Below, one piece after another: positions 28,510-53,885 of a stretch of 54,322 nt of DNA. A program made the translations under genes and the position numbers. The notes under the pieces were generated by a model that saw nothing but the letters and a program-made list of their open reading frames with translations, searched no databases and was not told the DNA's origin. The stretch lies in contig CALWAR010000012.1 in the NCBI GenBank assembly GCA_944375765.1, positions 1-54,322 on the forward strand, in the 5' to 3' direction. How positions within the stretch are numbered: the first letter of the stretch is position 1; each line of letters opens with the position of its first letter. The stretch comes from an uncultured Mediterraneibacter sp. GTDB lineage: Bacteria > Bacillota > Clostridia > Lachnospirales > Lachnospiraceae.

Positions 28510-28524
28510 AGGGGAGAATCCAAA

Positions 28525-35017: not shown

Positions 35018-35960
35018 TTATGGAGAGCCGGATCAGCAGACAGGAGAAATACAGGATGCAGGCCTTTTCCGGAAAGAGAAAGGGATTGCTCTGCAATATG
35101 TATTAGATAATCCGAATCACATCAAAGAAAGAAAGTGCCCGGTCTGCGGAACTGCACATACCAAATTCATTTTTTCGCGATGGGATATCGACTATCTGTT
35201 TTGTGACGAATGCTGCAGTATTTTTGTTCCTGCTGATAAGAAAACGATCAAAGATTATCTGAATATCGAAAAGATGCGGGAACTGAGGATTTCCGATGAA
35301 TATCAACAGCAGGCGGAAGAGCGCAGGGCAGACATATGGGACGGACAGGTGATGTGGGCCCAGTTCAGGATATACAGATATCTGGGAAGAAATACGAATC
35401 TGGATATCATTGACTATGGAAACCGTTATAACGGTTCTGTAAACCGGTTCAGAGGATCCGGGATGTGCAGCCGTTACGAATTAAGGGACTCTATCCTCCC
35501 GATCGATACAGAAAAAGTCAGCAGGGCAGATGTGATCTTGTACATTAACCAGTTACAGCATGAGTCAGATCCGGTCGCAACTTTGGGCAGCCTGAAAAAG
35601 GATCTGAAAAAAGGAGGGATACTTATCCTGAATACAAGGCTGGGAAGCGGATTTGACATCCTGACGCTGAAAGGAAGTATGGACAGTATCTTTCCCTATG
35701 AACATATTATGCTGCCGTCAAGACGGGGGCTGGAGATGATCCTGGATAAAGCGGGATATGAACTTTTGGAAATCACGACGCCCGGTACCAGAGACATGGA
35801 GTCCGTTCTCAAAAATAAAGAAAGAGTGGAAGAGAGCAACTTTTTTATCAAATATCTCCTGAAGACAGCAGACAGGTCTACACTGGCTGATTTTCAGAAA
35901 TTTCTGCAAAAAAGCGGCATGAGTTCGTTTGCACAGGTAGTAGCTAAGGTGAGGATGTAA
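35001..35960 (+). CDS. Methyltransferase-like protein with zinc ribbon
   Basis: The 319-residue protein begins with a CPVCG / FCDEC zinc ribbon (about residues 43-72), followed by a Rossmann domain with the late SAM-methyltransferase features LKKDLKKGGILILNT near 205 and HIMLPSRRGLEMILDKAGYE. The usual glycine-rich SAM loop is replaced by DIIDYGNRYNGSV, so SAM binding may be weak or lost. It resembles sugar C- or O-methyltransferases such as those with N-terminal zinc sites. ATG 35001 follows GGAGG. Confidence 0.72.
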   Translation: MLKAYDYGEPDQQTGEIQDAGLFRKEKGIALQYVLDNPNHIKERKCPVCGTAHTKFIFSRWDIDYLFCDECCSIFVPADKKTIKDYLNIEKMRELRISDEYQQQAEERRADIWDGQVMWAQFRIYRYLGRNTNLDIIDYGNRYNGSVNRFRGSGMCSRYELRDSILPIDTEKVSRADVILYINQLQHESDPVATLGSLKKDLKKGGILILNTRLGSGFDILTLKGSMDSIFPYEHIMLPSRRGLEMILDKAGYELLEITTPGTRDMESVLKNKERVEESNFFIKYLLKTADRSTLADFQKFLQKSGMSSFAQVVAKVRM

Positions 35961-36996: not shown

Positions 36997-37911
36997 ATGA
37001 AAGGGATAATTTTAGCGGGAGGGGCCGGTACAAGATTGTATCCTCTTACCCTGGTTACATCCAAACAGTTATTACCCATCTATGATAAACCAATGATTTA
37101 TTACCCTCTGTCAACTTTAATGCTTGCAGGTATAAGAGATATTTTAATAATATCTACACCCGAAGATTTACCTAAATTCCGGATGCTTTTGGGAGATGGA
37201 GGGGATCTGGGAATCCATTTGGAATATAAAGAACAGTTTTCCCCTGACGGGCTGGCACAGGCCTTTCTGATTGGTCAGGAATTTATAGGGGATGAAGCAT
37301 GCGCAATGGTTTTGGGGGATAATATTTTTTATGGAAATGACTTTTCAAGTTATTTGAGAATTGCGGTTAAAAATGCGGAGGAGAAGTCCGTAGCGACTAT
37401 ATTTGGATACTATGTACAAGATCCGGAAAGATTTGGAATCGTAGAATTTAATGATAACGGAAAAGTATTAAGCCTTGAGGAAAAGCCTCAAAAACCGAAA
37501 TCTAATTATGCAGTGACAGGACTATATTTTTATCCGCCAGGAGTCTACGAACTGGCAAAACAGATCAAGCCTTCTGAAAGAGGCGAATTAGAAATAACTT
37601 CTTTGAACGAGAAATATTTATGTGAAAATAACTTGGAAGTGATGATACTGGGGCGTGGGTATGCATGGCTGGATACAGGTACAATGGATAGCCTGCTGGA
37701 AGCGGCAGAATTTGTACATATGATTGAAAAACGGCAAGGTATAAAAATCTCTGCTCCGGAAGAAATTGCTTATAGGCGACATTGGATTAGTAATAAAGAA
37801 TTATTAGAGGCCGCTGAGAAATATGGCAGAAGTTCATATGGAAAACATCTGAAAGCTGTGGCCAATGGAAAAGTTTTTAGTGCATATGATCTGAATTTGG
37901 ATAACGAGTGA
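36997..37911 (+). CDS. rfbA: Glucose-1-phosphate thymidylyltransferase
   Basis: This 304-residue enzyme makes dTDP-glucose. It carries the nucleotidyl loop [13 protein letters not shown], the catalytic/activator site [29 protein letters not shown] near 107 and the product-site EEKPQKP. Length and motifs are typical of RfbA/RmlA. An AGGAG site precedes the ATG. Composition shifts to clearly more A+T here. rfbC and rfbD are absent, so the product is unlikely to be dTDP-rhamnose. Confidence 0.95.
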
Positions 37912-37920
37912 GGTAGGTAA

Positions 37921-38901
37921 ATGAACATACTTATAACAGGTGGAGCGGGATTTATAGGAAGTAATTTCATATATTATATATTTGAAAAGTATCCAGACTA
38001 TCACGTTATTTGTGTAGATGCCCTGACATATGCGGGGAATCTGGCTACTTTAGAAAAAGTCAGAAAATCAAAGAGATTTAAGTTCTATAAAGAGGATATC
38101 AGCAATAGAAAAGGGATTTATAAGATTTTTGAAGAGACCAGGCCGAATATCGTTGTAAATTTTGCTGCAGAAAGCCATGTGGATCGTTCAATTGAAGATC
38201 CTGATGTTTTTTTACAGACAAATGTAATCGGCACAGAAGTACTCTTAGATGCATGTAAAAAATATGGAAATATAAGATACCATCAGGTTTCAACAGATGA
38301 AGTCTACGGAGATCTGCCTTTAGACAGGCCTGATCTGCTTTTTACAGAACAGTCTAATGTAAAAGCAAGCAGTCCCTATTCTGCATCCAAAGCAGGCGCG
38401 GATTTACTTGTACAGGCATATTGCAGGACATATGGACTGCCCAGCACAATATCAAGGTGTTCTAATAATTATGGCCCTTACCAGTTTCCGGAAAAATTAA
38501 TTCCACTTACTATCTTAAAAGCCTTGAATAATGAGAAGATACCAGTATATGGAGATGGGAAGAACATACGTGACTGGCTGTATGTTGACGATCACTGCAA
38601 AGCGATAGATAAAATAATCCATCATGGTAAAATAGGCGAAGTCTATAATATAGGCGGAAATAATGAAAAAGAAAATATTGAGATTGTTCGATTGATTTGT
38701 AAAGAACTTAATAAACCTGAATCCCTTATTACATTCGTCGAAGATCGGAAAGGACATGATAAACGCTATGCAATTGATGCTTCCAAAATGTCTTCTGAAT
38801 TAAAATGGATTCCGGAAATGTCATTTGAAAAGGGAATAAAAAGTACTGTGTCATGGTACTTAAATCATATAGACTGGTGCAATACCGTATTGAATAAATA
38901 A
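37921..38901 (+). CDS. rfbB: dTDP-glucose 4,6-dehydratase
   Basis: This 326-residue extended SDR makes dTDP-4-keto-6-deoxyglucose. It has the NAD loop TGGAGFIGSNF, NFAAESHVDRSIEDP near 79, the catalytic region STDEVYGDLP near 122 and the YSASK pair near 155. Nine bases separate it from rfbA. Its product is the substrate expected for the aminotransferase at 42740. Confidence 0.96.
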   Translation: MNILITGGAGFIGSNFIYYIFEKYPDYHVICVDALTYAGNLATLEKVRKSKRFKFYKEDISNRKGIYKIFEETRPNIVVNFAAESHVDRSIEDPDVFLQTNVIGTEVLLDACKKYGNIRYHQVSTDEVYGDLPLDRPDLLFTEQSNVKASSPYSASKAGADLLVQAYCRTYGLPSTISRCSNNYGPYQFPEKLIPLTILKALNNEKIPVYGDGKNIRDWLYVDDHCKAIDKIIHHGKIGEVYNIGGNNEKENIEIVRLICKELNKPESLITFVEDRKGHDKRYAIDASKMSSELKWIPEMSFEKGIKSTVSWYLNHIDWCNTVLNK

Positions 38902-38926
38902 AAGATGCAATTAAGGAGATAAAGCA

Positions 38927-41900: not shown

Positions 41901-42703
41901 CTATTTATGAGTATAATCCGCTGGCCATACTGGATATAACGAATGATAACGCCATTTATAATCCGCAGCTTTTGAATGATTTTCCGGTATTTTCTATTCC
42001 GTTAAACGGATATAGCAGCAGTGCCTCATATACATGCTATATTGCAAGAAATATTGATCTGGTAAAACAGTGTAATGAGATATATCACTCTGTAGACCTG
42101 GATAAATGCTATGAAGCAAATTTGTATATACCATGGGTAATTGGAGAAGAAAAATACGGGCGTGAAAAATACAGAATCAAAAGGGACGATTTTGTGATGA
42201 TTACTGTCGGAAACAGGCTTGAGTTTGAACTTACGGAAGAAGTCCAGCAGGGGATGAGGGAACTTCTTGACTGCAATAGAGACATGAAATGGATACTGGT
42301 AGGCAATATAAATAATAAATTTGAGTATTTACAGGATCTGGAAAATAGAAAACAGCTTATCTACTGGGGATATGAGAATAACCTGACTGCTTTGTACAAA
42401 ATGTGTGACATATACCTTGATCCGCCAAGAAGCGGAGGGGGAGGAAGCGTAGCCGGCGCTGTGCAGACAGGACTTCCCGCAGTAGTGTCAAAAGTGCCGT
42501 CAGATATTCTTCCATTCATAGGAGCAGAAAACGCTGCAGACGACTGGAATGGAGAACTTAAACTGGTTCTTGAACTTTATCACAGTAAAGTCAAACGAAA
42601 AAAATTAGCTAAAAGTCAGCAAGCTTCTTTAAGATCGGACAGATTCAAAATAGAAAACTTTGGCGGCGTACTGGAAAGAGCAATAAAAGATTTGAAATTC
42701 TAG
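38927..42703 (+). CDS. 1258-residue multidomain polysaccharide transferase
   Basis: Three regions are visible. Residues ~55-155 form a beta-rich 'GW' domain (ISGWFLPVNNYDRIEVY, GVRRTDVYKNFP) shared with the gene at 45650. Residues ~270-600 match the protein at 50998-52389 (WNKFGYFHLIFDGLC, IYMESGLLPGT, GQNDFESGLFPYTEHT, RHPMM), a capsule-synthesis/phosphoribosyl-like transferase type. Residues ~880-1255 are a GT-B-like domain (LMVTGLHGKNNASTQLEIGL; YLDPPRSGGGGSVAGAVQTG). It probably adds two sugars or one sugar plus a modification. GTG 38927 is preceded by AAGGAG. Confidence 0.8.
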   Translation: MDNTMKRLMDTVNPANAKEIFDYLYAKFPDVISGKNFTALKYYSGVFGGVSHRDSFHPLGIYISGWFLPVNNYDRIEVYCGEIFLGNANLGVRRTDVYKNFPFYNEKNPGFDIFIGHHLQEIKSGQPLAIVVKKGNQTIRKEIISVDVYSPDDSISEIKQGISNRKRILAPTLTNRLPMILKFADKMPEYQFITLIEGMENNLEEVYRTCQQKYSLLSSDLNRLSIFMMAKLFLRNHFPENSDVDLNKDERLLFEQEPFLKNSAEIIAEKYNVAEEYSQKYVCTAYKYVTKLLLTIRPEVVLLWNKFGYFHLIFDGLCKKYGIPVIYMESGLLPGTLIFETFGQMGESYPALNSGEFSSLPVTDEELLKAAELRERLYENKLNRWTSSDPSVYKKDEASLVLEQLDKEKPTLLYAGQNDFESGLFPYTEHTKKFHSPVFGSSDEAAVFLGKLAADKGWNLIYKRHPMMQGRLAMELPENIIISDKIDIHDAIDIADVTITILSQTSYVSLIRNKPAVMLGYHQLAHKGIIYEAWDKKQIEESISNAIKDGFTDRQKANFIKHIAQLCKYYLYTDFEDDSVQYGKTMEDLLVFIDHVVADNQSVNYDILCKMNEDTVLVEKGTLKKSSLSEFTLDLNLKEKLKRRNIKYIITNRDFWHIGKKRGSIAEFLSADCTEETFYRNMMYISQIETKDLEAGNWKEQFKKVLLTALKRGPYHFGQFLYRCENLHDEIKNRLFIDDEIQNGFAEALEIMPKQIIEICAKEDKNDLVNVCFLMMKNALNNRDMEKENLVKCIEEIFDDAAVSDRRKSSFYELMFQCGMFTGEYLRQWTRLLMDSTDKDVLNYYGGMEMGWIAFLLPECIYPEYYIEKRKLLAHISAVMGGTYEKKQDNDENRRIALMVTGLHGKNNASTQLEIGLANELSRRGYDVTIFVADTQFINSDNLFPVMPVAKRTNFSTIFRNQHFLMKDNYVEIKYFDETASAEDRYHAYVKAIYEYNPLAILDITNDNAIYNPQLLNDFPVFSIPLNGYSSSASYTCYIARNIDLVKQCNEIYHSVDLDKCYEANLYIPWVIGEEKYGREKYRIKRDDFVMITVGNRLEFELTEEVQQGMRELLDCNRDMKWILVGNINNKFEYLQDLENRKQLIYWGYENNLTALYKMCDIYLDPPRSGGGGSVAGAVQTGLPAVVSKVPSDILPFIGAENAADDWNGELKLVLELYHSKVKRKKLAKSQQASLRSDRFKIENFGGVLERAIKDLKF

Positions 42704-42739
42704 GGTATGCTGACAAAATATCGCAAAAGGAGAATGTCT

Positions 42740-43858
42740 ATGGACGAGAAAATTATACATGTGGTAAGTCCTTCAATGCCTCCCTTTGAAGAATTTACAA
42801 AAGAGATTTATTCTATCTGGGAGACAAAACAGTTAACAAATTCAGGGCCTAAACATGCTTTATTCCAAAGAAAATTAGAGGAATTTCTTAATGTAAAACA
42901 TGTTTCTCTTTTTGCTAACGGGCATTTGGCGCTTGAAGCAGGAATACAGGCATTAGATTTGAAAGGCGAGGTGATTACTACACCATTTACCTTTGTTTCC
43001 ACAACCCAGGCGATTTTAAGATGCGGACTGACTCCGGTTTTTTGCGATATTTCAACAGATGATTATACGATAGATGCTTCTAAAATAGAGGCTCTGATCA
43101 CTGAGAACACAAGTGCAATTCTGCCGGTTCATGTATATGGGAATATCTGCAATGACGAAATGATAGAAAAAATTGCTAAAAAGCATAATCTTAAAGTGAT
43201 ATATGATGCGGCGCACGCGTTTGGCGAAACTTACAAAGGCAGGAATGTGGCTGAACTGGGAGATATGTCCATGTTTAGTTTTCATGCAACAAAAGTCTTT
43301 AATTCAGTAGAGGGCGGATGCCTTGCCTTTTCTGACGATACAAAAGAAGATGTATTAAACAGCCTGAAACAGTTCGGGCAAATGGCGCATACGGACAGCG
43401 TGCCTTATGTGGGCACTAATGCTAAAATGTCAGAACTTCATGCAGCTATGGGACTGTTAAATCTTAAATACCTCAGTACCTATATTGAAAAAAGGAAAAA
43501 AGTTGTTTCGCTTTATCGAGACAGACTTTCACAAGCACAAGGGATCCGTCTATGCAAAGAAAAGGCAGAAGTGATCTATAATTATTCATATTTTCCGGTT
43601 TTGATAGATGCTGATGCATCAGGAACTACACGAGATATCGTGTGTCAAAAGTTACAACAGAATAATATATATGCCAGAAAATATTTTTATCCTCTTACCA
43701 GTGATCTTGAGTGCTGCAGAAAAAGGAATATTGATGCGTACGTGCCAGTTGCAAAATATGTCTCTGACAGTATTCTGACATTGCCTTGTTACTCAGATCT
43801 GGAACTTGATGATGTGGATAAAATATGTGATATCATTTTGCAGGAAATTCAAGGTTAA
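42740..43858 (+). CDS. DegT/DnrJ/EryC1/StrS sugar aminotransferase (VioA-like)
   Basis: This 372-residue PLP enzyme has TTPFTFVSTTQAI near 81, YDAAHAFGETYKG with the cofactor Asp near 156, and the PLP lysine 185 in MFSFHATKVFNSVEGG. With rfbA and rfbB nearby it should aminate dTDP-4-keto-6-deoxyglucose to a 4-amino-4,6-dideoxyhexose (Qui4N or Fuc4N); the stereochemistry cannot be read from sequence. ATG 42740 has AAAGGAG seven bases upstream; an ATG two codons before is too close. Confidence 0.88.
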   Translation: MDEKIIHVVSPSMPPFEEFTKEIYSIWETKQLTNSGPKHALFQRKLEEFLNVKHVSLFANGHLALEAGIQALDLKGEVITTPFTFVSTTQAILRCGLTPVFCDISTDDYTIDASKIEALITENTSAILPVHVYGNICNDEMIEKIAKKHNLKVIYDAAHAFGETYKGRNVAELGDMSMFSFHATKVFNSVEGGCLAFSDDTKEDVLNSLKQFGQMAHTDSVPYVGTNAKMSELHAAMGLLNLKYLSTYIEKRKKVVSLYRDRLSQAQGIRLCKEKAEVIYNYSYFPVLIDADASGTTRDIVCQKLQQNNIYARKYFYPLTSDLECCRKRNIDAYVPVAKYVSDSILTLPCYSDLELDDVDKICDIILQEIQG

Positions 43859-43918
43859 GTAAAGACGTTATAATCTATACACATCCATAAATTCAAAGAT
43901 GTCTATTGGAGGAAAGTA

Positions 43919-44623
43919 ATGAAATTAGGAATTATGCAGCCATATTTTGTCCCGTATATCGGCTATTGGCAGCTAATGAATGTAGTAGATAAATATGTTA
44001 TATATGATGATGTTAATTTTATAAAAGGCGGATGGATTAACAGAAACCGTATTTTAGTTAATGGAGAGACGAAATACTACAATATACCAATGTTAGGAGC
44101 CAGTCCACATAAATTGATTAATGAGGTAAAAGTAAATCTTGATGATAGACTTGTTTCTAAAAATTTAAGAATAATTGAAGGAGCATACAAGAAAGCTCCT
44201 TATTACAATAATGTTCTTCCACTAATTGAGCAAGTGTTAAGATGTAAAAAAAGCAATATCGCAGAGTTTATTGAAGAATCTTTCTATATTATAAATGAGT
44301 ATCTGGGAATAGAAACACAACTTATTATGTCTTCGTCTTTGGATAAAGACAATAGTTTAAAAGGCCAGGATAAAGTACTCTCGATATGCAAATTACTAAA
44401 TGCATCTGAATATTATAATTCATCTGGCGGACAAGAACTATATTCTTTTTCAGATTTTAAAAGTCAGGGAATTATACTGAAGTTTTTAAAATCAAAAGAG
44501 GTTATATATAAACAATTTGACAATGAATTTAAGGACAATTTATCGATATTGGATGTAATGATGTTCAACAGTCAAGAACAAGTCAGGGAATTCTTGAATA
44601 AATTTGACATTGTGACAGAGTAG
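43919..44623 (+). CDS. WbqC family protein
   Basis: This 234-residue protein has the diagnostic opening KLGIMQPYFVPYIGYWQLM, the strand YVIYDDVNFIKGGWINRN near 39, and SGGQELYSFSDF near 163. WbqC-type proteins occur with amino-sugar and acyl-transfer genes in O-antigen loci. Their activity is not well established; a role in joining an acyl or amino acid group to an amino sugar is suspected. GGAGGAAAG precedes ATG 43919. Confidence 0.9.
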   Translation: MKLGIMQPYFVPYIGYWQLMNVVDKYVIYDDVNFIKGGWINRNRILVNGETKYYNIPMLGASPHKLINEVKVNLDDRLVSKNLRIIEGAYKKAPYYNNVLPLIEQVLRCKKSNIAEFIEESFYIINEYLGIETQLIMSSSLDKDNSLKGQDKVLSICKLLNASEYYNSSGGQELYSFSDFKSQGIILKFLKSKEVIYKQFDNEFKDNLSILDVMMFNSQEQVREFLNKFDIVTE

Positions 44624-44666
44624 TTTAATTATTGCTAAAAAGGATTAAAGGCAAGGGGGGAGTCTC

Positions 44667-45629
44667 ATGAAAGAATTTGGAGGATATTTAGAGCTGGACC
44701 AATATCATGGAAAAGAATATTATCCACATTTTATTTCACTTAATTGTGGGAGAAACTGTCTTGCATTTTTAATTGAATCAAGAAAGATTGAAAAGGTTTA
44801 TTTGCCGTATTTCCTTTGTGATTCCGTGAAGCATATATGCCAAAAATACGGTGTGATGTCTGAGCATTATCATATTGACGCAGCGTTTAAGCCTGTATTT
44901 AAGAAAATACTTAAAGAATCTGAGTTTTTATATGTCGTAAATTATTACGGACAACTGAATGATGACTATTTAAAGCATCTAAAAGCCAGATATTCTAATT
45001 TGATTTTAGATTATACACAGGCGTTTTTTCAAAAGCCGATAGAAAATATCGACACTATATTTACTTGCAGAAAATATTTTGGACTAGCTGACGGAGCTTA
45101 TCTGTCAACAGATTGCATGCCGGTTAGAGAATATCCTGTGGATGTGTCATATGACCGTATGAGTTTTATTTTGGGAAGATATGAACATCCTGCTTCAGAA
45201 TTCTATGAGGAATATGTAAAAAATAATGATTATTTTAATTCACAGCCTATCAAATATACTTCAAGATTGACAAAGAATTTACTGAAAGGAATTGATTATG
45301 ATTTTGTTAAAAAAAGGAGAGAGGAGAATTTTGACTATCTCCATTATCGATTAGGCGGTAAAAATCAACTAAGTATTAAACGGCCAGAAGGCCCGTTTTC
45401 ATATCCTTTTCTTACAGAAAACGGATATACAATCCGAAAGTATCTTCAAGATCGGAATATATATGTTGCTATGTTATGGCCGGAGGTACGAGAAATATGT
45501 AACGAAAAAATGACAGAATATAGATTGGCATCTGATATTTTGCCGCTTCCAATTGACCAGAGATATGATCAGAACGATATGAGGATAATTGCAGATACAG
45601 TGTTAGAATTAGTAAGCATTTATAACTAA
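44667..45629 (+). CDS. PLP-transferase-fold protein, DegT-related, unknown substrate
   Basis: The 320-residue protein has the reduced aminotransferase-like pattern FISLNCGRNCLAFLIES, VYLPYFLCDSV, LILDYTQAFF near 112 and CRKYFGLADGAYL near 133, in which the Lys of RKYFG stands where PLP would bind. It is shorter than normal sugar aminotransferases. It may be a second aminotransferase, or a carrier-bound substrate enzyme related to the nearby FkbH set. AAGGGGGGAG lies upstream. The gene is A+T-rich. Confidence 0.65.
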   Translation: MKEFGGYLELDQYHGKEYYPHFISLNCGRNCLAFLIESRKIEKVYLPYFLCDSVKHICQKYGVMSEHYHIDAAFKPVFKKILKESEFLYVVNYYGQLNDDYLKHLKARYSNLILDYTQAFFQKPIENIDTIFTCRKYFGLADGAYLSTDCMPVREYPVDVSYDRMSFILGRYEHPASEFYEEYVKNNDYFNSQPIKYTSRLTKNLLKGIDYDFVKKRREENFDYLHYRLGGKNQLSIKRPEGPFSYPFLTENGYTIRKYLQDRNIYVAMLWPEVREICNEKMTEYRLASDILPLPIDQRYDQNDMRIIADTVLELVSIYN

Positions 45630-45649
45630 ATTTTGTTGGAGGAACAACT

Positions 45650-46387
45650 ATGAAAAAACTTCAAGGCGGGATTAGCCAAAATGGAAGTATATATTACAAG
45701 AATGAGAACTGCCTGGCGATATATGGATGGCTTTATCCCAGATCATCATATGACCAGATATCTGTTTATTATAATAATAAGCATATAGGAAATGATTCAC
45801 TGGGCATTGACAGACCCGATGTTTTTCAGCATTATCCGACAGAAGAGGGGATGAAATCAGGGTTTAAATTTAGTGTTAAATTAGATGACTTTGACACACA
45901 GGATCCTGTAGTTTTTCTTGTAGTTAAAAAAGGGACAGAAGTAATTACAAGTTTGATAGAAAACGTTACAGTCTATAAATATTGTAATAAATTTACAGAA
46001 TGTATAGAAAAGTATAAGCTTTTGCCAAACGAAAGAACGGACAGTTTTTTATTTACAAGATGGATCGATTCGGATGATGACGCTGAATATTATAGAACTG
46101 GTATATATGAGGGATTATTTAAACGTTTAGAAAATACAGAGAAAAACGGACACAAAATAGTTGTTTCAGGGGAAAACTGGTACAGTTTATGCGCTGAACT
46201 GGAAGAAAAGGGATATATTCCATTAAAGGATTTTATACCGATATGGTATTACTTTTTTATAAAAGATTCAAGAATAAGATTTGATGTAATAGTGAACGAA
46301 CTTGACGATCAAAAAGCGCTGGAATATATAGATTTTTTGAAAAAATTAGGGGGGGGGTTGTATTCTTATATGGAAATTGTCAAGTGA
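45650..46387 (+). CDS. N-terminal part of a frame-split GW-domain/WcbI protein
   Basis: This 245-residue frame begins with a beta-rich domain (LAIYGWLYPRSSYDQISVY, GIDRPDVFQHYP, SGFKFSV) shared with the 1258-residue transferase, then a Rossmann-like region (KIVVSGENWYSLCAELEEKG). It crosses nine G residues at 46349-46357 and stops soon after. In the next frame the sequence continues at once as VVFLYGNCQVKKLGEIL, the start of a WcbI domain. With ten or seven G residues the two frames join into one ~515- or ~514-residue protein. GGAGGAAC precedes ATG 45650. Confidence 0.8.
   Translation: MKKLQGGISQNGSIYYKNENCLAIYGWLYPRSSYDQISVYYNNKHIGNDSLGIDRPDVFQHYPTEEGMKSGFKFSVKLDDFDTQDPVVFLVVKKGTEVITSLIENVTVYKYCNKFTECIEKYKLLPNERTDSFLFTRWIDSDDDAEYYRTGIYEGLFKRLENTEKNGHKIVVSGENWYSLCAELEEKGYIPLKDFIPIWYYFFIKDSRIRFDVIVNELDDQKALEYIDFLKKLGGGLYSYMEIVK
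46349..46357 (+). repeat. Nine-G homopolymer inside a coding frame
   Basis: TTA is followed by GGGGGGGGG and then TTG. In this A+T-rich gene such a tract is conspicuous. It sits exactly at the point where the coding frame of the GW/WcbI protein breaks, so slipped-strand change of one base would switch the full-length protein on or off. Confidence 0.9.
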
Positions 46388-47196
46388 AAAAACTGGGCGA
46401 AATTCTTGCTAAAGACAGCGGATTTGCAAAAGATTACATTGTTGTAGATCTGCCGACTATATTTTCAATTAACGGGAAATGGCTTCCGCTTATCAGGAAG
46501 ATGATAAAGAAAGCAGACATTTTGATTTATCAAAATATCGATGTAAATAACAGGTTTTCGGCAGTTCTTTCTACGCAGTATCTTCTGTCTGCATGTAAGG
46601 AAGACTGTAAACTGGTTTGTATTCCAAACATGTATTTTAGAGGATATTGGCCACAATATTGTAAAAATAAGTATGCATATCTTACCAGAGGTTATGATGT
46701 GTGTCCCTATGGAGACTCAAATCTAAATTCGGCATATGAAAAAGGAGAGAGTTTAGAAAACGTATTAAAAAATATAGAGAATGAGCAGTATTATTCTGAA
46801 GAAACCTGTGAGAAAAATGTAGCTGATAGCCTGTTGGAGCTAAAAAACAGAGAAGACAGGTGTGATATAAAAATATCAGATTATATAGCAAAATACTACA
46901 AGAAAGACAGGTTGTTTTACGCTGTCAATCATCCAACTTTACAGTTATATTATGAAATGGTAAAAAGGATACTGTACTATCTGGATTATAAAAATCCAGA
47001 GTTTTCGTCTAAAACAAATGAGCAGGACGGGATTGAGGTTCCTATATATCCCTCTGTTGCAAAAGGACTGGGATTAGAATTTGAAATCAAACCAGGATAT
47101 TTTTATAAACACTTTTTCCCCCAGAAACTTTCAATGTATGACTGGATGAAAAAATATATAAACTATTGTTTTGAACAACGACCATCCAATATTTGA
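46384..47196 (+). CDS. WcbI-type polysaccharide biosynthesis domain, C-terminal part of the frame-split protein
   Basis: The frame is open upstream through the G tract and includes the family motif YGNCQ (just before GTG 46384), then ILIYQNIDVNNRFSAVLSTQ, CIPNMYFRGYWPQ and CPYGDSNLNSAYEKG. This matches the WcbI family, proposed acetyl- or acyl-modifying enzymes of capsule synthesis. GTG 46384 has no ribosome site and would cut off GNCQ, so independent translation is unlikely. It is best read as the second half of the protein starting at 45650. Confidence 0.78.
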   Translation: MKKLGEILAKDSGFAKDYIVVDLPTIFSINGKWLPLIRKMIKKADILIYQNIDVNNRFSAVLSTQYLLSACKEDCKLVCIPNMYFRGYWPQYCKNKYAYLTRGYDVCPYGDSNLNSAYEKGESLENVLKNIENEQYYSEETCEKNVADSLLELKNREDRCDIKISDYIAKYYKKDRLFYAVNHPTLQLYYEMVKRILYYLDYKNPEFSSKTNEQDGIEVPIYPSVAKGLGLEFEIKPGYFYKHFFPQKLSMYDWMKKYINYCFEQRPSNI

Positions 47197-47225
47197 AGTG
47201 ATTTTAGGAAAGGAAATATCAGGCT

Positions 47226-47798
47226 ATGATAATAAAAAATGGCTGCGCGACACTCAGAGCGATCGAGAAAACAGATTTTGAGCTGCTTTTATATCTGATT
47301 AATGCCCCGGAGATAGAAGAAATGATCGGCGGATGGGCTCTGCCTGTCAGCAGGACAGCGCAGGAAAAATGGATAGAAAGTTATTCAAACACAGAAAAGA
47401 ATATAAAACTTATGATTGAACTGACAAATGGAAAAACAATAGGCATGATGATGCTGTCCAATATTGACTGGAAAAACAGGACAGCTTTGCTGGAATATAA
47501 GACCGGTGCGCCAGTGGAAGACCGAATACGGGGAGATATGCTTGATGCCATTAACGGAATGTTAGATTATGCATTCGGAGAGCTGGGTATGAACTGTGTG
47601 ACCGCTACAATTCAGGAGGAAAACAAATTTTCACTTAAGCTCTGTAAAAGAGCCGGCTTTGTAGAAGAAGGAATCTTGAGGCAGAGGATTTATAAAAGAG
47701 GCGCTTATAGAAATCAGATAGAGCTGTCAATTTTGCGAAATGAATTTTTTAAAATCTGCGGAAAGGAATCAAAAGCTAATGAAAATGCAGGAACATGA
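47226..47798 (+). CDS. GNAT family acyltransferase (RimL-like)
   Basis: This 190-residue GNAT protein has the N-terminal strand CATLRAIEKTDFELLLYLIN, the acyl-CoA-binding motif A region APVEDRIRGDMLDAINGML near 98 and the typical ending FSLKLCKRAGFVEEGILRQRIYKRGAYRN. Beside the VioA-like aminotransferase it is a good candidate to N-acylate the 4-amino sugar, using CoA or the adjacent carrier protein as donor. The end overlaps the FkbH gene. Confidence 0.88.
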   Translation: MIIKNGCATLRAIEKTDFELLLYLINAPEIEEMIGGWALPVSRTAQEKWIESYSNTEKNIKLMIELTNGKTIGMMMLSNIDWKNRTALLEYKTGAPVEDRIRGDMLDAINGMLDYAFGELGMNCVTATIQEENKFSLKLCKRAGFVEEGILRQRIYKRGAYRNQIELSILRNEFFKICGKESKANENAGT

Positions 47799-49572
47799 AA
47801 TAGAAAAAAAAATCAGGTCGATTTCTGCTGATCAATACATGGAAATAATCAAACTGGCGAGAGCAGCAAAAAAGAATAGTGCGAAAAAAGCAGATATAAA
47901 AGTTGCTGTGATTGGGACATGCAGTCTTCAGTATTTTGTAATGGTCTTAAAAGTGATTTTACTTAAATACGGTATATCGGCAGAAATTTATGAAGGCCAG
48001 TATGATGGTATCAATATGGAAGTGTTCGACAGGGCCTCTGCTCTTTATTGTTTTCAGCCGGATGTAGTGATCGTACTTAGTGACTACAGGGATATCAAAG
48101 AGTTTCCATCACTCTTTGATACGAATGATGCCGTGGATTCTTACATAAAGAAAAACGGGGAATATTATTCGGAAATGTGGGACAGACTGTCTGAAATTAA
48201 AGGATGCCACATATTGCAGGCGAATTTGGTGACTCCTGTAGAAAGAGTACTGGGGAATCTGGAATCCGGAGTCTATTATTCAAGAAGAATTTTTTACCAA
48301 CTTCTTAATATTGAGATGACAAAAAGAAAGCGAAAAAATGTAACAATAATTGACATGGAATACCTGGCTTCAATTGCAGGAAAAGATAAATGGTTTGACC
48401 GTAAATCATATTTTATGAATAAACTGCCATTTTCTTTGGAACAGATAGGGATAGTCTGTGATGTGTTTGCACAGCAGATCGCAGAACTGAAAGGAAAAAT
48501 CAAAAAGTGTCTTGTTTTAGATTTAGACAATACTTTGTGGGGCGGGGTAGTTGCTGATGAAGGGCCATTAGGAATACAAACAGATCCTAATCAGGCGGAA
48601 GGGGAAGCGTATCTCGAATTCCAAAAATATATTTTAGAATTAAAGAATAGAGGCGTTATTCTTGGTGTGATCAGTAAAAATGACTATGAGACTGCAAAAG
48701 AACCCTTTGATAAAAATGAAAATATGATTTTAAAATATGATGACTTTTCAGCATTTATAGCAAACTGGGAAAACAAGGCTAAAAATATAGAGGCAATGGC
48801 AAATGAGCTGAACATCGGTACTGACAGTTTCGTGTTTTTTGACGATAATCCTGCTGAACGGGAAATTGTTAAAATGTATCACCCTGAGGTGACAGTGATC
48901 GAAGTGCCCGAAAATATTGCTGAATACGTTACTGCACTCGAAAGAGCACACCCTTTTGACTGGTTAAATATAACAAAGGAGGATATCAGCAGAACTGAAT
49001 CTTATGTGAGCAATAGTGCAAGAAAAACTTTACAAATTCAATTTAAAGATTATCAGGAGTATCTGAAAGCCTTGGAAATGGAAAGTGAAGTTGGGCCGTT
49101 AGACAAAAACAATTTGGAACGATTCACACAATTGATTAACAAGTCTAATCAATTTAATTTGAGGACCCAACGTTATTCTGAGGGAACTATCAGCCAGATG
49201 ACGAGTAGTCCGGATTACAGGCTTCTTACAGTGAAGCTGTCCGATAAATTCAGCAAATTTGGAATAATATCATGCATTATACTAAAGAAAGAAGAGTCTG
49301 AATGTTTCATTGACACATGGGTAATGAGTTGCAGGGTATTAAAAAGAGATGTAGAGAAGCTGGTATTTAATCATATTGTAAAAGAGGCTGTGAACTGGAA
49401 ATGCGAAAGAATTACGGGAGAGTATATTCCCACAGTAAAAAACAAACTAGTTAAAAATCTCCTGCCTGAGTTGGGATTTGAATTAATTGAAACGGACGAT
49501 ACAGGTAAAGAGAGGTATTCATGTAGCGTAGAACTTGCAAAATATAATAAAACAATGATAAAGGAGAGATAA
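47779..49572 (+). CDS. FkbH-like protein (HAD-type glyceryl/acyl carrier-protein loading enzyme)
   Basis: At about 597 residues it matches FkbH-like proteins: N-terminal region with VAVIGTCSLQYFVMVLK, HAD motif VLDLDNTLWGGVV near 245, VISKNDYETAKEPF near 298, FFDDNPAERE near 353, and a GNAT-like C-terminus with NKSNQFNLRTQRYSE. Characterised FkbH proteins dephosphorylate 1,3-bisphosphoglycerate and load glyceryl onto an acyl carrier protein. The carrier gene follows by two bases. Start chosen at ATG 47779 with AAAGGAA upstream; the frame is open to 47740. Confidence 0.92.
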   Translation: MKMQEHEIEKKIRSISADQYMEIIKLARAAKKNSAKKADIKVAVIGTCSLQYFVMVLKVILLKYGISAEIYEGQYDGINMEVFDRASALYCFQPDVVIVLSDYRDIKEFPSLFDTNDAVDSYIKKNGEYYSEMWDRLSEIKGCHILQANLVTPVERVLGNLESGVYYSRRIFYQLLNIEMTKRKRKNVTIIDMEYLASIAGKDKWFDRKSYFMNKLPFSLEQIGIVCDVFAQQIAELKGKIKKCLVLDLDNTLWGGVVADEGPLGIQTDPNQAEGEAYLEFQKYILELKNRGVILGVISKNDYETAKEPFDKNENMILKYDDFSAFIANWENKAKNIEAMANELNIGTDSFVFFDDNPAEREIVKMYHPEVTVIEVPENIAEYVTALERAHPFDWLNITKEDISRTESYVSNSARKTLQIQFKDYQEYLKALEMESEVGPLDKNNLERFTQLINKSNQFNLRTQRYSEGTISQMTSSPDYRLLTVKLSDKFSKFGIISCIILKKEESECFIDTWVMSCRVLKRDVEKLVFNHIVKEAVNWKCERITGEYIPTVKNKLVKNLLPELGFELIETDDTGKERYSCSVELAKYNKTMIKER

Positions 49573-49574
49573 AA

Positions 49575-49811
49575 ATGAATATTAAAGAAACGTTGGAGAA
49601 AATTTTCAGAGATGTATTTGAAGATGAGGATATTATTTTGACAGAATCAACAACAGCAGAAGATATTGAAGATTGGGATTCGCTGACGCATATTCAGTTA
49701 ATAGAAGAAATTGAACAGGAGTTTAAGATCAAATTTACTTTACAAGAGATAACGGGCCTTAAGAATGTGGGCGAATTTATCACTCTGGTAGAAAGAAAGC
49801 TGAGTAATTAG
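49575..49811 (+). CDS. Acyl carrier protein
   Basis: This 78-residue acidic four-helix carrier has the phosphopantetheine site EDWDSLTHIQL; Ser36 is the attachment residue. It lies two bases after the FkbH gene and four before the dehydratase, so it is the dedicated carrier of this module rather than the fatty acid synthase ACP. AAGGAGAG precedes the ATG. Confidence 0.95.
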   Translation: MNIKETLEKIFRDVFEDEDIILTESTTAEDIEDWDSLTHIQLIEEIEQEFKIKFTLQEITGLKNVGEFITLVERKLSN

Positions 49812-49815
49812 GAAG

Positions 49816-50232
49816 ATGAATGAGTATAGATTTGAAGATATTATTGAAGGAACAAATGCTGAATTTCAAGTTGCTGTCTCTGAGGAAATGTTAGAAGATT
49901 TTCAAAGATTAAGCGGAGACACTAACCCCATGCATACAGATAGAGAATATGCCCGGGAAAAGGGAATGGATGACAGAATCTGCTATGGAATGTTAACAGC
50001 CTCTTTTTATTCCAGGCTGGTCGGAATGTATCTTCCCGGGAAATTTTGTATTCTGCAAGAAATATCAGTAGCGTTCCATAAACCTGTTTATATTAACGAT
50101 ATACTTAAAGTGTCAGGAAAGGTAATAAAAAAGAATGAACTTTTTAAGCGGCTTGAGATTGATGCCAAAATAATAAATACAAATGGAGAACGGGTGAGCA
50201 AAGCCAGAATCAAAGTGGGGTGTTTGGAATGA
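49816..50232 (+). CDS. MaoC-like hotdog hydratase/dehydratase
   Basis: This 138-residue single hotdog domain carries the hydratase-2 motif LSGDTNPMHTD with the catalytic Asp35 and His40, plus YGMLTASFYSRLVG. The family hydrates or dehydrates (R)-3-hydroxyacyl thioesters. Next to a carrier protein and an SDR it may shape the carrier-bound acyl group. It overlaps the SDR start as ATGA. Confidence 0.92.
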   Translation: MNEYRFEDIIEGTNAEFQVAVSEEMLEDFQRLSGDTNPMHTDREYAREKGMDDRICYGMLTASFYSRLVGMYLPGKFCILQEISVAFHKPVYINDILKVSGKVIKKNELFKRLEIDAKIINTNGERVSKARIKVGCLE

Positions 50233-50978
50233 ATGAGAAAAAAATATACCTTATTTTGGGCGCTTCTTCTGATATCGGGAGTGAATTGGTTAAAGACCTG
50301 AATGATACAGAAAAAGAAGCGGTAATGATTTGCCATTACAGGAGTCAGTGTGAGAAATTAGCTGAAATAAACTTAAAAAATGGTAATCAAATTGATTTTA
50401 TACAGGCTGATCTTAGTCTTCAGGATGAAGTCCATGCTTTAATTGACTATGTTAAGAGGCAATATAATTCTCCTGTATATATTGTACATCTCCCGGCAAA
50501 CAAATTTGAATACACTAAGCTAAAAACATTCTCATGGGAAACTTTGCAACGTGATATGGAGATTCAAGTCCATGCTTTGATTGAAATAATGAAAGCTTTT
50601 TTGCCACACATGTTGAAAAGAGATTGTATGACCAAAGTGGTTATCATGTTGTCTGCATATACAATGGGAAATCCTCCTAAATATATGATGAATTATATTG
50701 TCACAAAGTATGCGCTTCTTGGATTAATGAAGTCTTTGGCAATAGATTATGCCGGAAAAAATATACGGATTAATGGAATATCTCCATCTATGATGGAAAC
50801 AAAATTCCTGGATAATGTCGATGAAAGAATTGTGCAACTTAATGCTTATAACAGTGTTGGCAAAAGAAATGCACAGGTTTCAGATATAGTGCCTGCTATT
50901 AGATTTCTTTTGTCTGATGCAAGTAACTATTTGCATGGAACTAATTTGAACGTGACAAATGGAAATATCATCAGTTAG
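50229..50978 (+). CDS. Short-chain dehydrogenase/reductase (FabG-like)
   Basis: This 249-residue classical SDR has the cofactor loop LILGASSDIGSEL (residues 8-20), catalytic Ser132, and Tyr146/Lys150 in YIVTK, followed by NGISPSMMET. It probably reduces a 3-keto or other carbonyl on the carrier-bound acyl chain. ATG 50229 overlaps the upstream stop by four bases; a GTG three codons earlier is an alternative start. Confidence 0.9.
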   Translation: MNEKKIYLILGASSDIGSELVKDLNDTEKEAVMICHYRSQCEKLAEINLKNGNQIDFIQADLSLQDEVHALIDYVKRQYNSPVYIVHLPANKFEYTKLKTFSWETLQRDMEIQVHALIEIMKAFLPHMLKRDCMTKVVIMLSAYTMGNPPKYMMNYIVTKYALLGLMKSLAIDYAGKNIRINGISPSMMETKFLDNVDERIVQLNAYNSVGKRNAQVSDIVPAIRFLLSDASNYLHGTNLNVTNGNIIS

Positions 50979-50997
50979 GTCTGTACAGGAAAACAAT

Positions 50998-52389
50998 ATG
51001 GAAGAATATACTCCTACAGAAAGTGAAAAACAGGAATATCTGGCATATGATTCAAAAGAAGCCTTTTTTGATAATCTTGAAAAGGGACTGCAGAGTATCA
51101 CGGAATATCAATTAAAAAAAACGAAAGAAAAAGTTGTATTAATTGCCGGAGCCATGGCGGTTTTTGACAAAGGGACAATAGATTTCCTTAATAAAATGGC
51201 CAGGGTTGATTCCCGTGCCCAATATATCCTGCTGTCAGAAGTGACTGCGGAATTCAGAAGAAAGACAAAAGACCGGTTTGAGTTTGAGTCAATATGTACG
51301 CCGCATCTTCTTGCCAAGGAGATACTGGTCCCGTATATGGATGTTCCTGTTCTGGCTCATGTCGGGAAATATCTTGACGCGCACAGTTATTTGATGAAAG
51401 CTATTGATAATTTGAAAGGACGCCATTATAATATTGGCTGTGGGTACGCAGAAAACCTGATCTATTATGCGGACAGATATTTGAAAACAGTACTGGACAG
51501 GATCCGTCCGGATTATGTGATCCTGTGGAATGAATTTTATGCATTTCACATGGTATTCCAATCTATATGCCATATGAGAGGAATTCCGGTCTTTTATATG
51601 GAGTTCGGATGCATTCCGGGTACTTTTGTTATAGAAAAATACGGTCAGCAGGGAGAGAGCTATCCATCGCGCCATCCTTTTAAATTTCGGCGCCTGTGCG
51701 TCGAACAAAGCGAAGAAATCCAAACGGAGCATATCCTGGCGTACTTGTCTGATACAGGTATGAACAGAAATCGGCAGCCTCTTCCGGGGAATATGGGACC
51801 ATATCTGAAACGCTGTCGTACAGGGAGGCCTGTAATAACTTATATGGGACAGAATGATTATGAATCGGGGATATATCCTTATACGTGTATGACGAGGAAA
51901 TATCATTCCCCCGTTTTTCGCAGTACTTTAGAGGCTTTGGAGTTCTTACGGCTGCTTTCTGTAAAAAATGACTGGAATCTGTTGTTCAAACCACACCCGA
52001 TCATGGAATTATTTTCAATGCAGAAAGACGGCATATATGGGTATGAGCCTCTAAAAGATGTTAATATTAATGAAGTGATAGACTGTTCAGACGTTATTGT
52101 TACCATTCTGTCACAGAGCGCATATCTCTCGCTGATACGAAATACCCCTGTAGTCATGCTCGGATATATCCAGTTGAAAGGAGCCGGCTGTGCTTATGAA
52201 GCATACTCCAGATGGAAGATTGAGCACATGATCAGGCGTGCTCTGAAGTATGGCTGTACAAACAGACAGAAAAAGCGGTTTCTCGAGCATACTGCCAGAT
52301 TACTGAAGTACTGTCTGTATGATGATGAATCGCATCCAGAACTGCCTTTTGGACAGAAGATCAGCAATTTTAAGGGGATTGAATTATAA
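50998..52389 (+). CDS. Capsule-type polysaccharide transferase, paralogue of the 1258-residue protein's middle domain
   Basis: The 463-residue protein shares order and wording of motifs with residues ~270-600 of the large transferase: YVILWNEFYAFHMVFQSIC, FYMEFGCIPGTF, GQQGESYP, MGQNDYESGIYPYTCMTRKY, FKPHPIM and ILSQSAYLSLIRNTPVVML. The last part resembles capsule synthesis/export (KpsC/KpsS-like) donor lobes. ATG 50998 has AGGA eight bases upstream, leaving a 19-base gap to the SDR; an ATG 13 codons earlier lies inside the SDR. Its composition is less A+T-rich than the preceding block. Confidence 0.8.
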   Translation: MEEYTPTESEKQEYLAYDSKEAFFDNLEKGLQSITEYQLKKTKEKVVLIAGAMAVFDKGTIDFLNKMARVDSRAQYILLSEVTAEFRRKTKDRFEFESICTPHLLAKEILVPYMDVPVLAHVGKYLDAHSYLMKAIDNLKGRHYNIGCGYAENLIYYADRYLKTVLDRIRPDYVILWNEFYAFHMVFQSICHMRGIPVFYMEFGCIPGTFVIEKYGQQGESYPSRHPFKFRRLCVEQSEEIQTEHILAYLSDTGMNRNRQPLPGNMGPYLKRCRTGRPVITYMGQNDYESGIYPYTCMTRKYHSPVFRSTLEALEFLRLLSVKNDWNLLFKPHPIMELFSMQKDGIYGYEPLKDVNINEVIDCSDVIVTILSQSAYLSLIRNTPVVMLGYIQLKGAGCAYEAYSRWKIEHMIRRALKYGCTNRQKKRFLEHTARLLKYCLYDDESHPELPFGQKISNFKGIEL

Positions 52390-52406
52390 AGAAAGGCTTG
52401 GAAGTT

Positions 52407-53885
52407 ATGACAAAAAGACGCAAGAAAAGACTGAAACCATCCGCCATCGTCGGCTATTCATTCCTTGGCCTGTACGCTGTGGCGGCTATCGCATTTCTTA
52501 TGTTCTGCCTGGATCTGAACATGCTTCCGGTCATGTACATTATCATAGAAGTAGTTGTACTGGCTGTTCTGGGCGTGCTGTTCGCGATCATGCAGCGTAA
52601 GTTCTCACTGTCTGTCATATCCGATATGCTTTGTTTCATATTCAGTATCGGACTTTTTGCCGGATGCTACTTTATATATCAGACAGGTTCCACTATATCC
52701 AATGTGGCAAGCACAGAAGCCCAGACGAATGTCATATCTGTCTATGTGATGGATGACGATCCGGCGCAGTCTCTGCAGGATATTGCCGATTATCAGTTCG
52801 GTATCAGCGCGACCGTGGACAGGGAGAACACGGACAATGCGATCAGCAGCCTCAGGGATCAGCTTGGATCGGAACTTTCTGTCAGCGAGTATGAGGATCT
52901 TTTTACAATGGTAGATGATCTGAGATCAGGGAGAACAGGGGCTGTCATTATCAACAGTGCATATCTTGGGATCGTTTCAGATGTAGAAGGCTACTCATGG
53001 GTGTTGACAGATCTCAGGGAGGTCAGTTCTGTGGCGCTTGAAGTTGCAGATGCAGGCAGGAACGATGTTCCCGACGATGTGCCGGAGACTTTTGTCATGT
53101 ATCTGAGCGGCATCGATACTTACGGGGGGATATCTGCACGCTCCAGAAGCGACGTGAACATTCTTGCAGTCGTGAACACAAGGACGAAGAACATCCTTCT
53201 GCTTTCAACGCCGAGAGACTACTATGTAGATTATTCTGTGACCGGTGGGGCAAAAGATAAGCTGACGCATGCCGGCATCTACGGCATCGACGCTTCAATG
53301 GATGCCCTGGAAAGGCTGTATGATATCGATATTGATTATTATCTGAGGGTAAACTTTACCGGATTTATAGATATTATCGATGCTCTTGGCGGTGTCGACG
53401 TGTATTCCGAGTATGATTTCTCTGTGGAGAATATCAGGAGTTATCAGCAAGGATACAACCATCTGACAGGACTTGAAGCGCTTGCCTTTGCAAGAGAGCG
53501 GTACAGTTTTGCAGAAGGCGATTATCAGAGAGCGGACAATCAGATGGAGGTAATACGTGCTGTCATTGCCAAATGTGCCTCGTCTTCGCTCCTGACAAAC
53601 TATACTTCTGTTATGCGAGCAGTCGCAGGCAGTTTTGATACAAATATGCCGGAAGATCAGATCGCTTCTCTGGTAAGAATGCAGCTTGCCGATATGTCAT
53701 CGTGGGATATCAATTCCTATACAGTGAGTGGAGAGAGCGCGTCGGCCGAGACATATTCCATGCCGGGGCAGAATCTTTATGTGATCATTCCGGACGAGAG
53801 CGACGTGAATAATGCAAAAGAAATGATAAGCGAGGTGTATGGTACAAATGATGAATCCAGCGGCAGTAATGAAACTGCTCAATGA
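52407..53885 (+). CDS. LytR-CpsA-Psr (LCP) family cell wall polymer ligase
   Basis: This 492-residue membrane protein has three N-terminal hydrophobic helices (about 15-35, 41-62, 70-90), an extracellular accessory region (95-210) and the LCP domain from about residue 225: SRSDVNILAVVN, LLSTPRDYYVD, FTGFIDIIDALGGVDVY and ALAFARERYSFAEGDYQRADNQ, which hold the acidic and Arg residues that bind diphosphate lipid. LCP proteins transfer polymers from undecaprenyl diphosphate to peptidoglycan. Its place at the end of the locus fits that job. ATG 52407 is chosen; a TTG at 52398 is an alternative. Confidence 0.94.
   Translation: MTKRRKKRLKPSAIVGYSFLGLYAVAAIAFLMFCLDLNMLPVMYIIIEVVVLAVLGVLFAIMQRKFSLSVISDMLCFIFSIGLFAGCYFIYQTGSTISNVASTEAQTNVISVYVMDDDPAQSLQDIADYQFGISATVDRENTDNAISSLRDQLGSELSVSEYEDLFTMVDDLRSGRTGAVIINSAYLGIVSDVEGYSWVLTDLREVSSVALEVADAGRNDVPDDVPETFVMYLSGIDTYGGISARSRSDVNILAVVNTRTKNILLLSTPRDYYVDYSVTGGAKDKLTHAGIYGIDASMDALERLYDIDIDYYLRVNFTGFIDIIDALGGVDVYSEYDFSVENIRSYQQGYNHLTGLEALAFARERYSFAEGDYQRADNQMEVIRAVIAKCASSSLLTNYTSVMRAVAGSFDTNMPEDQIASLVRMQLADMSSWDINSYTVSGESASAETYSMPGQNLYVIIPDESDVNNAKEMISEVYGTNDESSGSNETAQ

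Follow-up and report, generated by a model that had tools for sequence, protein, structure and literature searches.

Organization of the five-gene cassette

The stretch of DNA analysed here (hereafter the window) is the 54,322-nucleotide contig CALWAR010000012.1 of assembly GCA_944375765.1, from an uncultured Mediterraneibacter sp. of the Lachnospiraceae (hereafter the family). At positions 47,226 to 50,978, all on the forward strand, it carries a cassette of five genes built around an FkbH-type protein and a free-standing acyl carrier protein (ACP). The first gene encodes a GNAT N-acyltransferase (47226..47798; Pfam Acetyltransf_3, 59.9 bits) and the second an FkbH-type glyceryl transferase/phosphatase (47740..49572, with a possible start at the ATG at 47779; FkbH_N, 64 bits; TIGR01686, 304.5 bits against a cut-off of 146.65). 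They are followed by the ACP, with a DSL motif that contains Ser36 (49575..49811; PF00550, 27.7 bits), by a MaoC-type (R)-hydratase/dehydratase with the motif GDTNPMH (49816..50232; PF01575, 72.1 bits) and by a short-chain dehydrogenase/reductase (SDR) of the ketoreductase kind with a YxxxK motif (50220..50978, with a possible start at the ATG at 50229; PF13561, 112.6 bits). The initial annotation had described genes of these five families packed with gaps or overlaps of a few bases, and the coordinates and the Pfam and NCBIfam models bear this out. As listed, the GNAT and FkbH genes overlap by 59 nucleotides; a start of FkbH at the in-frame ATG 47779, which GGAAAGGA precedes, would reduce this to about 20. 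FkbH and ACP are 2 nucleotides apart, ACP and MaoC 4 nucleotides, and the MaoC and SDR genes overlap by 13 nucleotides, or by 4 if the SDR starts at 50229.

The five genes are real and intact, as well as tightly packed. FkbH has the DxDxT signature of HAD proteins and a cysteine within MSCRV, whose role we infer; the residues D261, D263, T265, K313, D368, D369 and C531 are identical in all 68 aligned rows (duplicates included). Ser36 is kept in 40 of 40 aligned carriers, D35 and H40 of MaoC are invariant (16 of 16 aligned), and Y159 and K163 of the SDR are kept in 15 of 15. The Asp/His pair in GDxNPxH is the motif of MaoC (R)-hydratases, and the best structural match of the window MaoC in the PDB is an (R)-specific enoyl-CoA (coenzyme A) hydratase, 5cpg. 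The best structural match of the window FkbH is 3slr (E 8.3e-64).

Distribution of the FkbH-carrier core in the family

Within the genus, FkbH was found in a single genome out of 58, that of the window itself (E 1e-20), and TIGR01686 matched nothing in 14 control genomes. Across the family it is present in 79 of 397 genomes (E 1e-40), roughly a fifth. This search returned 91 places; 60 of the 90 lying outside the window were used, almost all of them among the highest-ranked, and seven loci from named records (L002-L008) were added. Neighbours were then counted with profiles in 65 loci, after the duplicates L003, L004 and L006 had been dropped.

A carrier gene lies less than 400 bases from FkbH in 53 of these 65 loci. 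MaoC is found in 16, the SDR in 15 and both in 13 (Fisher p 3e-9). On a quick tree of FkbH, the presence of MaoC changes 12 times, with at least 8 changes forced by the starred branches. The neighbour counts and the changes on the tree together indicate that FkbH-ACP is a stable core and that MaoC, mostly accompanied by the SDR, is an exchangeable part.

Other genes recur beside this core. A VOC gene (Glyoxalase_4; one member was identified) is present in 13 of the 65 loci and never together with MaoC (0/65, p 0.016); by analogy with methylmalonyl-CoA epimerase, its product could perhaps epimerise C2 of glyceryl-ACP, which we offer as an idea only. Examples of this type near FkbH-ACP are found at L008:12050-12445, L051:8500-8913, L068, L072 and L084. 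An MBOAT gene (two members were identified) lies at most 6.5 kb from FkbH in 37 of the 65 loci. The arrangement FkbH-ACP-MBOAT is seen in L043, L044, L052, L070, L071, L083, L097 and others, where a conserved protein of some 380 amino acids is often encoded as well (no Pfam match in the one that was tested). In D-alanylation by the Dlt system, DltA, DltC and DltB act together. The FkbH-ACP-MBOAT loci of the family resemble Dlt, with FkbH in apparent replacement of DltA, the D-alanine ligase; no MBOAT was found among the 30 window proteins scanned. The MBOAT, GNAT or AAC(3)-like proteins are likely the transferases of the FkbH loci.

The complete order GNAT-FkbH-ACP-MaoC-SDR, with a GNAT of the window type, which the initial annotation had proposed to look for elsewhere, recurs in one other of the 397 family genomes (G357, locus L038). 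In L108, a GNAT from a different subfamily comes after FkbH-ACP-MaoC-SDR, while L077 (genome G167) has FkbH-ACP-MaoC-GNAT and no SDR. The cassette is a real, recurring and modular acyl-supply unit. In L109:1278-2995, FkbH occurs as two adjacent pieces next to ACP, MaoC and SDR. Two further loci contain, within about 2 kb of FkbH-ACP, a PseH protein above the TIGR03585 cut-off of 93.1 bits: L046:9081-12553 (109.3 bits) and L051:8500-13467 (111.2 bits, with PseG also over its cut-off). Judged from their gene content, both are candidates for a glyceryl-pseudaminic acid pathway.

Association of MaoC with FkbH and with the SDR

A profile built from 16 MaoC proteins (A1) was run on the 397 family genomes. 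It gave 27 matches of at least 155 bits in 25 genomes, followed by a gap down to 121 bits. FkbH is present in all of these 25 genomes, as compared to 79 of 397 overall, and in 20 of the 27 cases the MaoC gene lies at most 5 kb from FkbH. The SDR adjoins 15 of these 20, and in one more the contig ends there. In genomes with only weaker MaoC relatives, FkbH occurs in 8 of 32, which is near the background. One of these eight, G401, holds a fused version, in which a MaoC-SDR protein is encoded beside FkbH, ACP and a polyketide synthase with ketosynthase, dehydratase and ketoreductase domains (L111:6145-14000); this locus is a candidate for the synthesis of a polyketide that starts with lactyl. In a phylum-wide search of 329 genomes, the MaoC type was found in a single one, that of the window; we claim no wide spread of it beyond the family, apart from the loci of the named records L002-L008.

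Several observations weigh against the pathway that is preferred below. No SDR neighbours 4 of the 20 FkbH-linked MaoC genes, among them that of L077 with its GNAT, and 7 of the 27 MaoC matches have no FkbH within 5 kb. At six of these seven an SDR match of at least 100 bits is absent too; the seventh, L104, is a 3.3-kb contig with an SDR and an MBOAT. DUF2172/DUF4910 proteins were identified beside four of the FkbH-distant genes (L098, L099, L101 and L103) and AAC(3)-like domains at two of them (L098 and L101). Finally, loci with MaoC show slight clustering on the FkbH tree, the 12 changes comparing with a mean of 14.4 after shuffling (23 of 500 shuffles gave a number as low). Cj1295 of Campylobacter jejuni is presumably a DUF2172 protein.

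A carrier gene is located near each of the seven FkbH-distant MaoC genes (on the opposite strand in L103), and Sir2 proteins occur at three of them (L098, L100 and L103). The genomes of L098-L103, in which carrier and MaoC are found with no FkbH nearby, all have FkbH elsewhere. L066 joins both kinds of locus, since it contains a protein with weak similarity to AAC(3) (21.7 bits) and a DUF2172/DUF4910 protein together with FkbH, ACP and MaoC. As far as can be judged from gene neighbourhoods, MaoC is an exchangeable tailoring part that belongs to FkbH chemistry.

The similarity of MaoC to (R)-specific enoyl-CoA hydratases also allows another explanation, namely that MaoC and the SDR make (R)-3-hydroxybutyryl groups from crotonyl or acetoacetyl thioesters and that FkbH serves something else. 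3-Hydroxybutanoyl derivatives of 3-amino-3,6-dideoxygalactose (Fuc3N) and 3-amino-3,6-dideoxyglucose (Qui3N) occur in O-antigens and have dedicated transferases, FdhC being a 3-hydroxybutanoyl transferase, according to the passages available of PMC4869667, and the MaoC genes distant from FkbH fit this explanation as well. Nevertheless, FkbH and the carrier are encoded in the same tightly packed run as MaoC and the SDR, every genome with this MaoC type has FkbH, and none of the 30 window proteins scanned contains a ketosynthase or thiolase domain over the cut-off. We regard a 3-hydroxybutyryl product as improbable.

Relatives of the GNAT, its probable acceptor and its possible acyl donor

The window GNAT scores 40.9 bits against the PseH model TIGR03585 and does not reach the cut-off. 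When a profile of this protein (A2) was run on the 397 family genomes, three strong matches above 350 bits were obtained, in the window's own genome (G000), in G357 and in G167; the next match had 167 bits. The five next matches (L113-L117) all adjoin PglC-like sugar transferases. A PglE/LegC-type aminotransferase is found in four of these loci (in the one that was tested, the best model was LegC, under its cut-off), the fifth being a 3-kb contig, and a CapD-like dehydratase is present in three of the four. These neighbours indicate that the GNAT clade belongs to loci for 4-amino-4,6-dideoxysugars.

The initial annotation had tied the cassette to the amino-sugar locus in which it lies. The kinship of its GNAT to proteins of 4-aminosugar loci favours such a tie; the module as a whole is not bound to one sugar locus, because around two of the three cassettes that have a GNAT of this type, L038 and L077, the genes do not resemble glycan genes (named by eye; two neighbours in L038 are M20 and M23 peptidases), which argues against a sugar acceptor. 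It could thus be supposed that the target of the cassette is a protein, a small amine or some other metabolite and that its position in a polysaccharide locus is due to chance, all the more so as the GNAT has similarity to AAC(6') and spermidine acetyltransferases as well. The relatives in 4-aminosugar-type loci speak against this, as does the PseH over cut-off near FkbH in L046 and L051. Moreover, G357 and G167 each hold a PglE/FemX-type sugar locus with no GNAT within it, and the FemX-like protein of this locus occurs in 24 of 397 genomes (a comparison made post hoc, with a profile built partly from these two genomes); this provides weak support for a sugar acceptor. A non-sugar acceptor appears to us slightly more improbable still than the 3-hydroxybutyryl product. 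We also considered that the GNAT had been displaced from the sugar locus into the cassette and rejected this idea: among the 22 best of 30 such loci, 17 have no GNAT and 5 have one.

In GNAT proteins the loop [RQ]xxGx[GA] holds the phosphates of CoA. At the position where this loop is expected, the window GNAT has RIRGDM. The strict motif is found in none of eight FkbH-linked GNATs, as compared to 11 of 14 unlinked relatives (Fisher p 5e-4, with rows that are not independent). The eight belong to three subfamilies: those of the window, L038 and L077; the PseH type of L046 and L051; and those of L008, L047 and L108, which are FdhC-like by eye. The GNAT of L079, located 2 kb from FkbH and not adjoining it, was kept out of this count, and the strict motif is missing there too. 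With the relaxed pattern G-x-[GA], matches are obtained in 2 of the 8 linked proteins, neither of them at the right position by eye, and in 13 of the 14 unlinked ones. Where solved PseH (4xpk) has KGVG, the GNAT of L051 has no such loop.

The loss of the CoA loop suggests that the acyl donor of the FkbH-linked GNATs may be the carrier protein. It is no proof, since FdhC (PDB 5kta), a GNAT that presumably works with acyl-CoA, has no strict loop in the alignment either, which counts against reading the loss in this way. PseH and FdhC are likewise GNATs that act on amino-dideoxysugars; the window GNAT differs from them in that it falls under the PseH cut-off and adjoins its own carrier and the enzymes that would make the donor. 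A structure prediction of the window GNAT as a single chain had a mean predicted local distance difference test score of 35.6, too low for a usable model.

The surrounding locus and a proposed sugar-nucleotide pathway

Upstream of the cassette lie genes for RmlA, RmlB, a large glycosyltransferase-like protein, a DesI-like aminotransferase, WbqC, two proteins without a family, and WcbI; the six whose coordinates follow in this paragraph are on the forward strand. RmlA/RfbA, a glucose-1-phosphate thymidylyltransferase (36997..37911), scores 458.8 bits against TIGR01207 (cut-off 360.65), and RmlB/RfbB, a dTDP-glucose 4,6-dehydratase (37921..38901; dTDP, deoxythymidine diphosphate), 485.7 bits against TIGR01181 (cut-off 365.1). 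The aminotransferase (42707..43858) is a DegT/DesI-like sugar 4-aminotransferase (PF01041, 312.6 bits). Its best model is that of DesI (TIGR04427, 283.8 bits), the cut-off of 650 not being reached, and its best PDB match is 2po3, listed as a 4-dehydrase, which we take to be DesI. The proposed product is dTDP-4-amino-4,6-dideoxyglucose. The WbqC-like protein (43919..44623; PF08889, 223.8 bits) and the WcbI-family protein (46384..47196; PF18588, 120.5 bits) are both over their Pfam cut-offs. As for the earlier naming of these genes, rfbA, rfbB, WbqC and WcbI were thus confirmed, and "VioA-like" is a fair description of the chemistry of the aminotransferase, whose best model is DesI. The protein encoded at 44667..45629 has no Pfam or NCBIfam match; its relatives are found near the GNAT in L113-L117 (19 to 140 bits, some of them weak).

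RmlC has no match in the host genome, which is 92.8% complete, and matches were found in 11 of 14 control genomes. For this reason, dTDP-4-keto-6-deoxyglucose is probably not destined for rhamnose. At 27733-29547 the window encodes a permease of the ABC-2 type and an ABC ATPase, which back the earlier description of the locus as exporter-type; together with a LytR-CpsA-Psr protein (52398-53885), they indicate a Gram-positive polysaccharide export locus.

The nature of the locus is also relevant to the possibility that the cassette serves a natural product of the methoxymalonyl or tetronate type. FkbH with a free ACP is a hallmark of such pathways in the sources available to us, and L111 is a polyketide version within the family. 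In the methoxymalonyl-ACP and tetronate glycerate-utilisation operons (FK520, RK-682, tetromadurin), however, FkbH and ACP are accompanied either by a pair of dehydrogenases with an O-methyltransferase or by a FabH-like protein, whereas the window module instead has a GNAT, MaoC and one SDR and differs in this from a methoxymalonyl-ACP operon. No ketosynthase or FabH-like condensing protein is present among the 30 window proteins scanned, and the sole methyltransferase found (34971-35960) lies 12 kb upstream. In a polysaccharide export locus, such a pathway is very improbable.

Proposed pathway and comparison with known systems

Our preferred reading, held tentatively and at somewhat less than an even chance, is that of a carrier-protein-based acyl-donor cassette, in which lactyl formed by FkbH, MaoC and the SDR is put by the GNAT on dTDP-4-amino-4,6-dideoxyglucose. 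As known for its family, FkbH would load the neighbouring carrier with a glyceryl unit taken from 1,3-bisphosphoglycerate. MaoC would eliminate the 3-hydroxyl of glyceryl-ACP, giving 2-hydroxyacryloyl, which would tautomerise to pyruvyl-ACP, and the SDR would reduce the 2-keto group to give lactyl-ACP. The GNAT would then move lactyl, in the cytoplasm, from the carrier onto the 4-amino nitrogen of the sugar nucleotide supplied by RmlA, RmlB and the DesI-like aminotransferase, and the acylated sugar would be built into the exported polysaccharide. The initial annotation had already proposed loading of glycerate by FkbH, tailoring by a dehydratase and a reductase, and transfer by the GNAT to a 4-amino-4,6-dideoxysugar nucleotide. 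This remains the best-supported reading, owing to the relatives of the GNAT and the missing RmlC, and is here refined to a probable lactyl group and a putative acyl-ACP donor.

Nothing in the sequence demonstrates that MaoC would act on glyceryl-ACP, and for tetronates acetylation of the hydroxyl is believed to precede the elimination, both of which count against the proposed route. The system might be the same with a glyceryl or another glycerate-derived unit transferred in place of lactyl, and with MaoC and the SDR acting otherwise on the carrier-bound unit. In fact, 49 of the 65 FkbH loci have no MaoC, so that glyceryl itself is presumably a usable product; a dimethylglyceryl group is used by C. 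jejuni (see below), and L077 has the GNAT and no SDR. On the other hand, 13 of the 15 SDR loci have MaoC, and a dehydratase followed by a ketoreductase would give lactyl most directly. Lactyl is therefore favoured, because MaoC is coupled with the SDR and because the two are fused beside FkbH in L111; transfer of a glyceryl-type unit is unlikely, while being the alternative that we take most seriously. On the available sequences, N-acylation of a 4-amino-4,6-dideoxysugar with a group of the glyceryl or lactyl type appears the best reading, with lactyl as the most likely single product.

The closest precedent is found in C. jejuni, where a di-O-methylglyceryl group is carried by pseudaminic acid and Cj1295 is needed for the modification, according to the passages available of PMC3068675. 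The ions at 317 and 391 given there differ by 74, which by our arithmetic fits an acetyl group replaced by dimethylglyceryl. The locus holds a gene with an fkbH domain, cj1302, in the available part of PMC7099621. Both systems have an fkbH-domain gene in the locus, and both would have a surface sugar that bears an acyl group of the glycerate type. They differ in that the glyceryl of C. jejuni is methylated and the sugar is pseudaminic acid on flagellin; MaoC and the SDR are not mentioned in those passages.

In loading modules of the bryostatin type, FkbH, dehydratase, ketoreductase and ACP give lactyl. The window cassette has these four functions too, with a single carrier, and L111, where the fused MaoC-SDR protein adjoins a polyketide synthase, is a version of such a module. 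The lactyl of the loading modules serves as the starter of a polyketide, whereas here a sugar amine is the proposed acceptor.

No paper in which FkbH, MaoC and an SDR supply a sugar acyltransferase was found in the open-access library searched. The earlier suggestion that the module may be an undescribed system has to be narrowed all the same, given the dimethylglyceryl precedent and the fact that FkbH-ACP with exchangeable enzymes is common in the family, so that the module is no isolated oddity. With slightly less confidence than in the pathway itself, and thus still short of even, we suggest that FkbH-ACP may be the core of an unrecognised modular, carrier-based machinery for glycan acylation in this family, with lactyl (MaoC and SDR) or epimerised (VOC) options, and with delivery by CoA-free GNATs in the cytoplasm or by a Dlt-like MBOAT across the membrane.

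If the proposed pathway is true, the decoration of surface sugars would draw directly on an intermediate of glycolysis, amino sugars with an N-lactyl (or N-glyceryl) group would have a defined enzymatic source, and FkbH-ACP chemistry, known mainly from polyketide antibiotics, would extend to Gram-positive surface glycans. The loss of the CoA loop together with an adjoining carrier gene may serve as a sequence rule for GNATs fed by ACP.

Other features of the window

Over the first 30 kb of the window the G+C content is close to 50%; it falls to 42-45% between 32 and 38 kb and to 32-38% between 38 and 52 kb. Given this drop and the presence of FkbH in a single genome of the genus, positions 38000-52000 were likely acquired horizontally. 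The large protein of 1258 amino acids encoded at 38927-42703 has weak GT1 matches near its C-terminus and has a sequence stretch in common with a protein of 476 amino acids encoded downstream of the cassette (50959-52389), for which no Pfam match was obtained. At 32088-34275, a PseF/KdsB-like cytidylyltransferase, a GmhA-like isomerase and a phosphoglycerate-dehydrogenase-like protein are encoded in a row, all under the curated cut-offs; their succession may be read as another unusual sugar or acid pathway.

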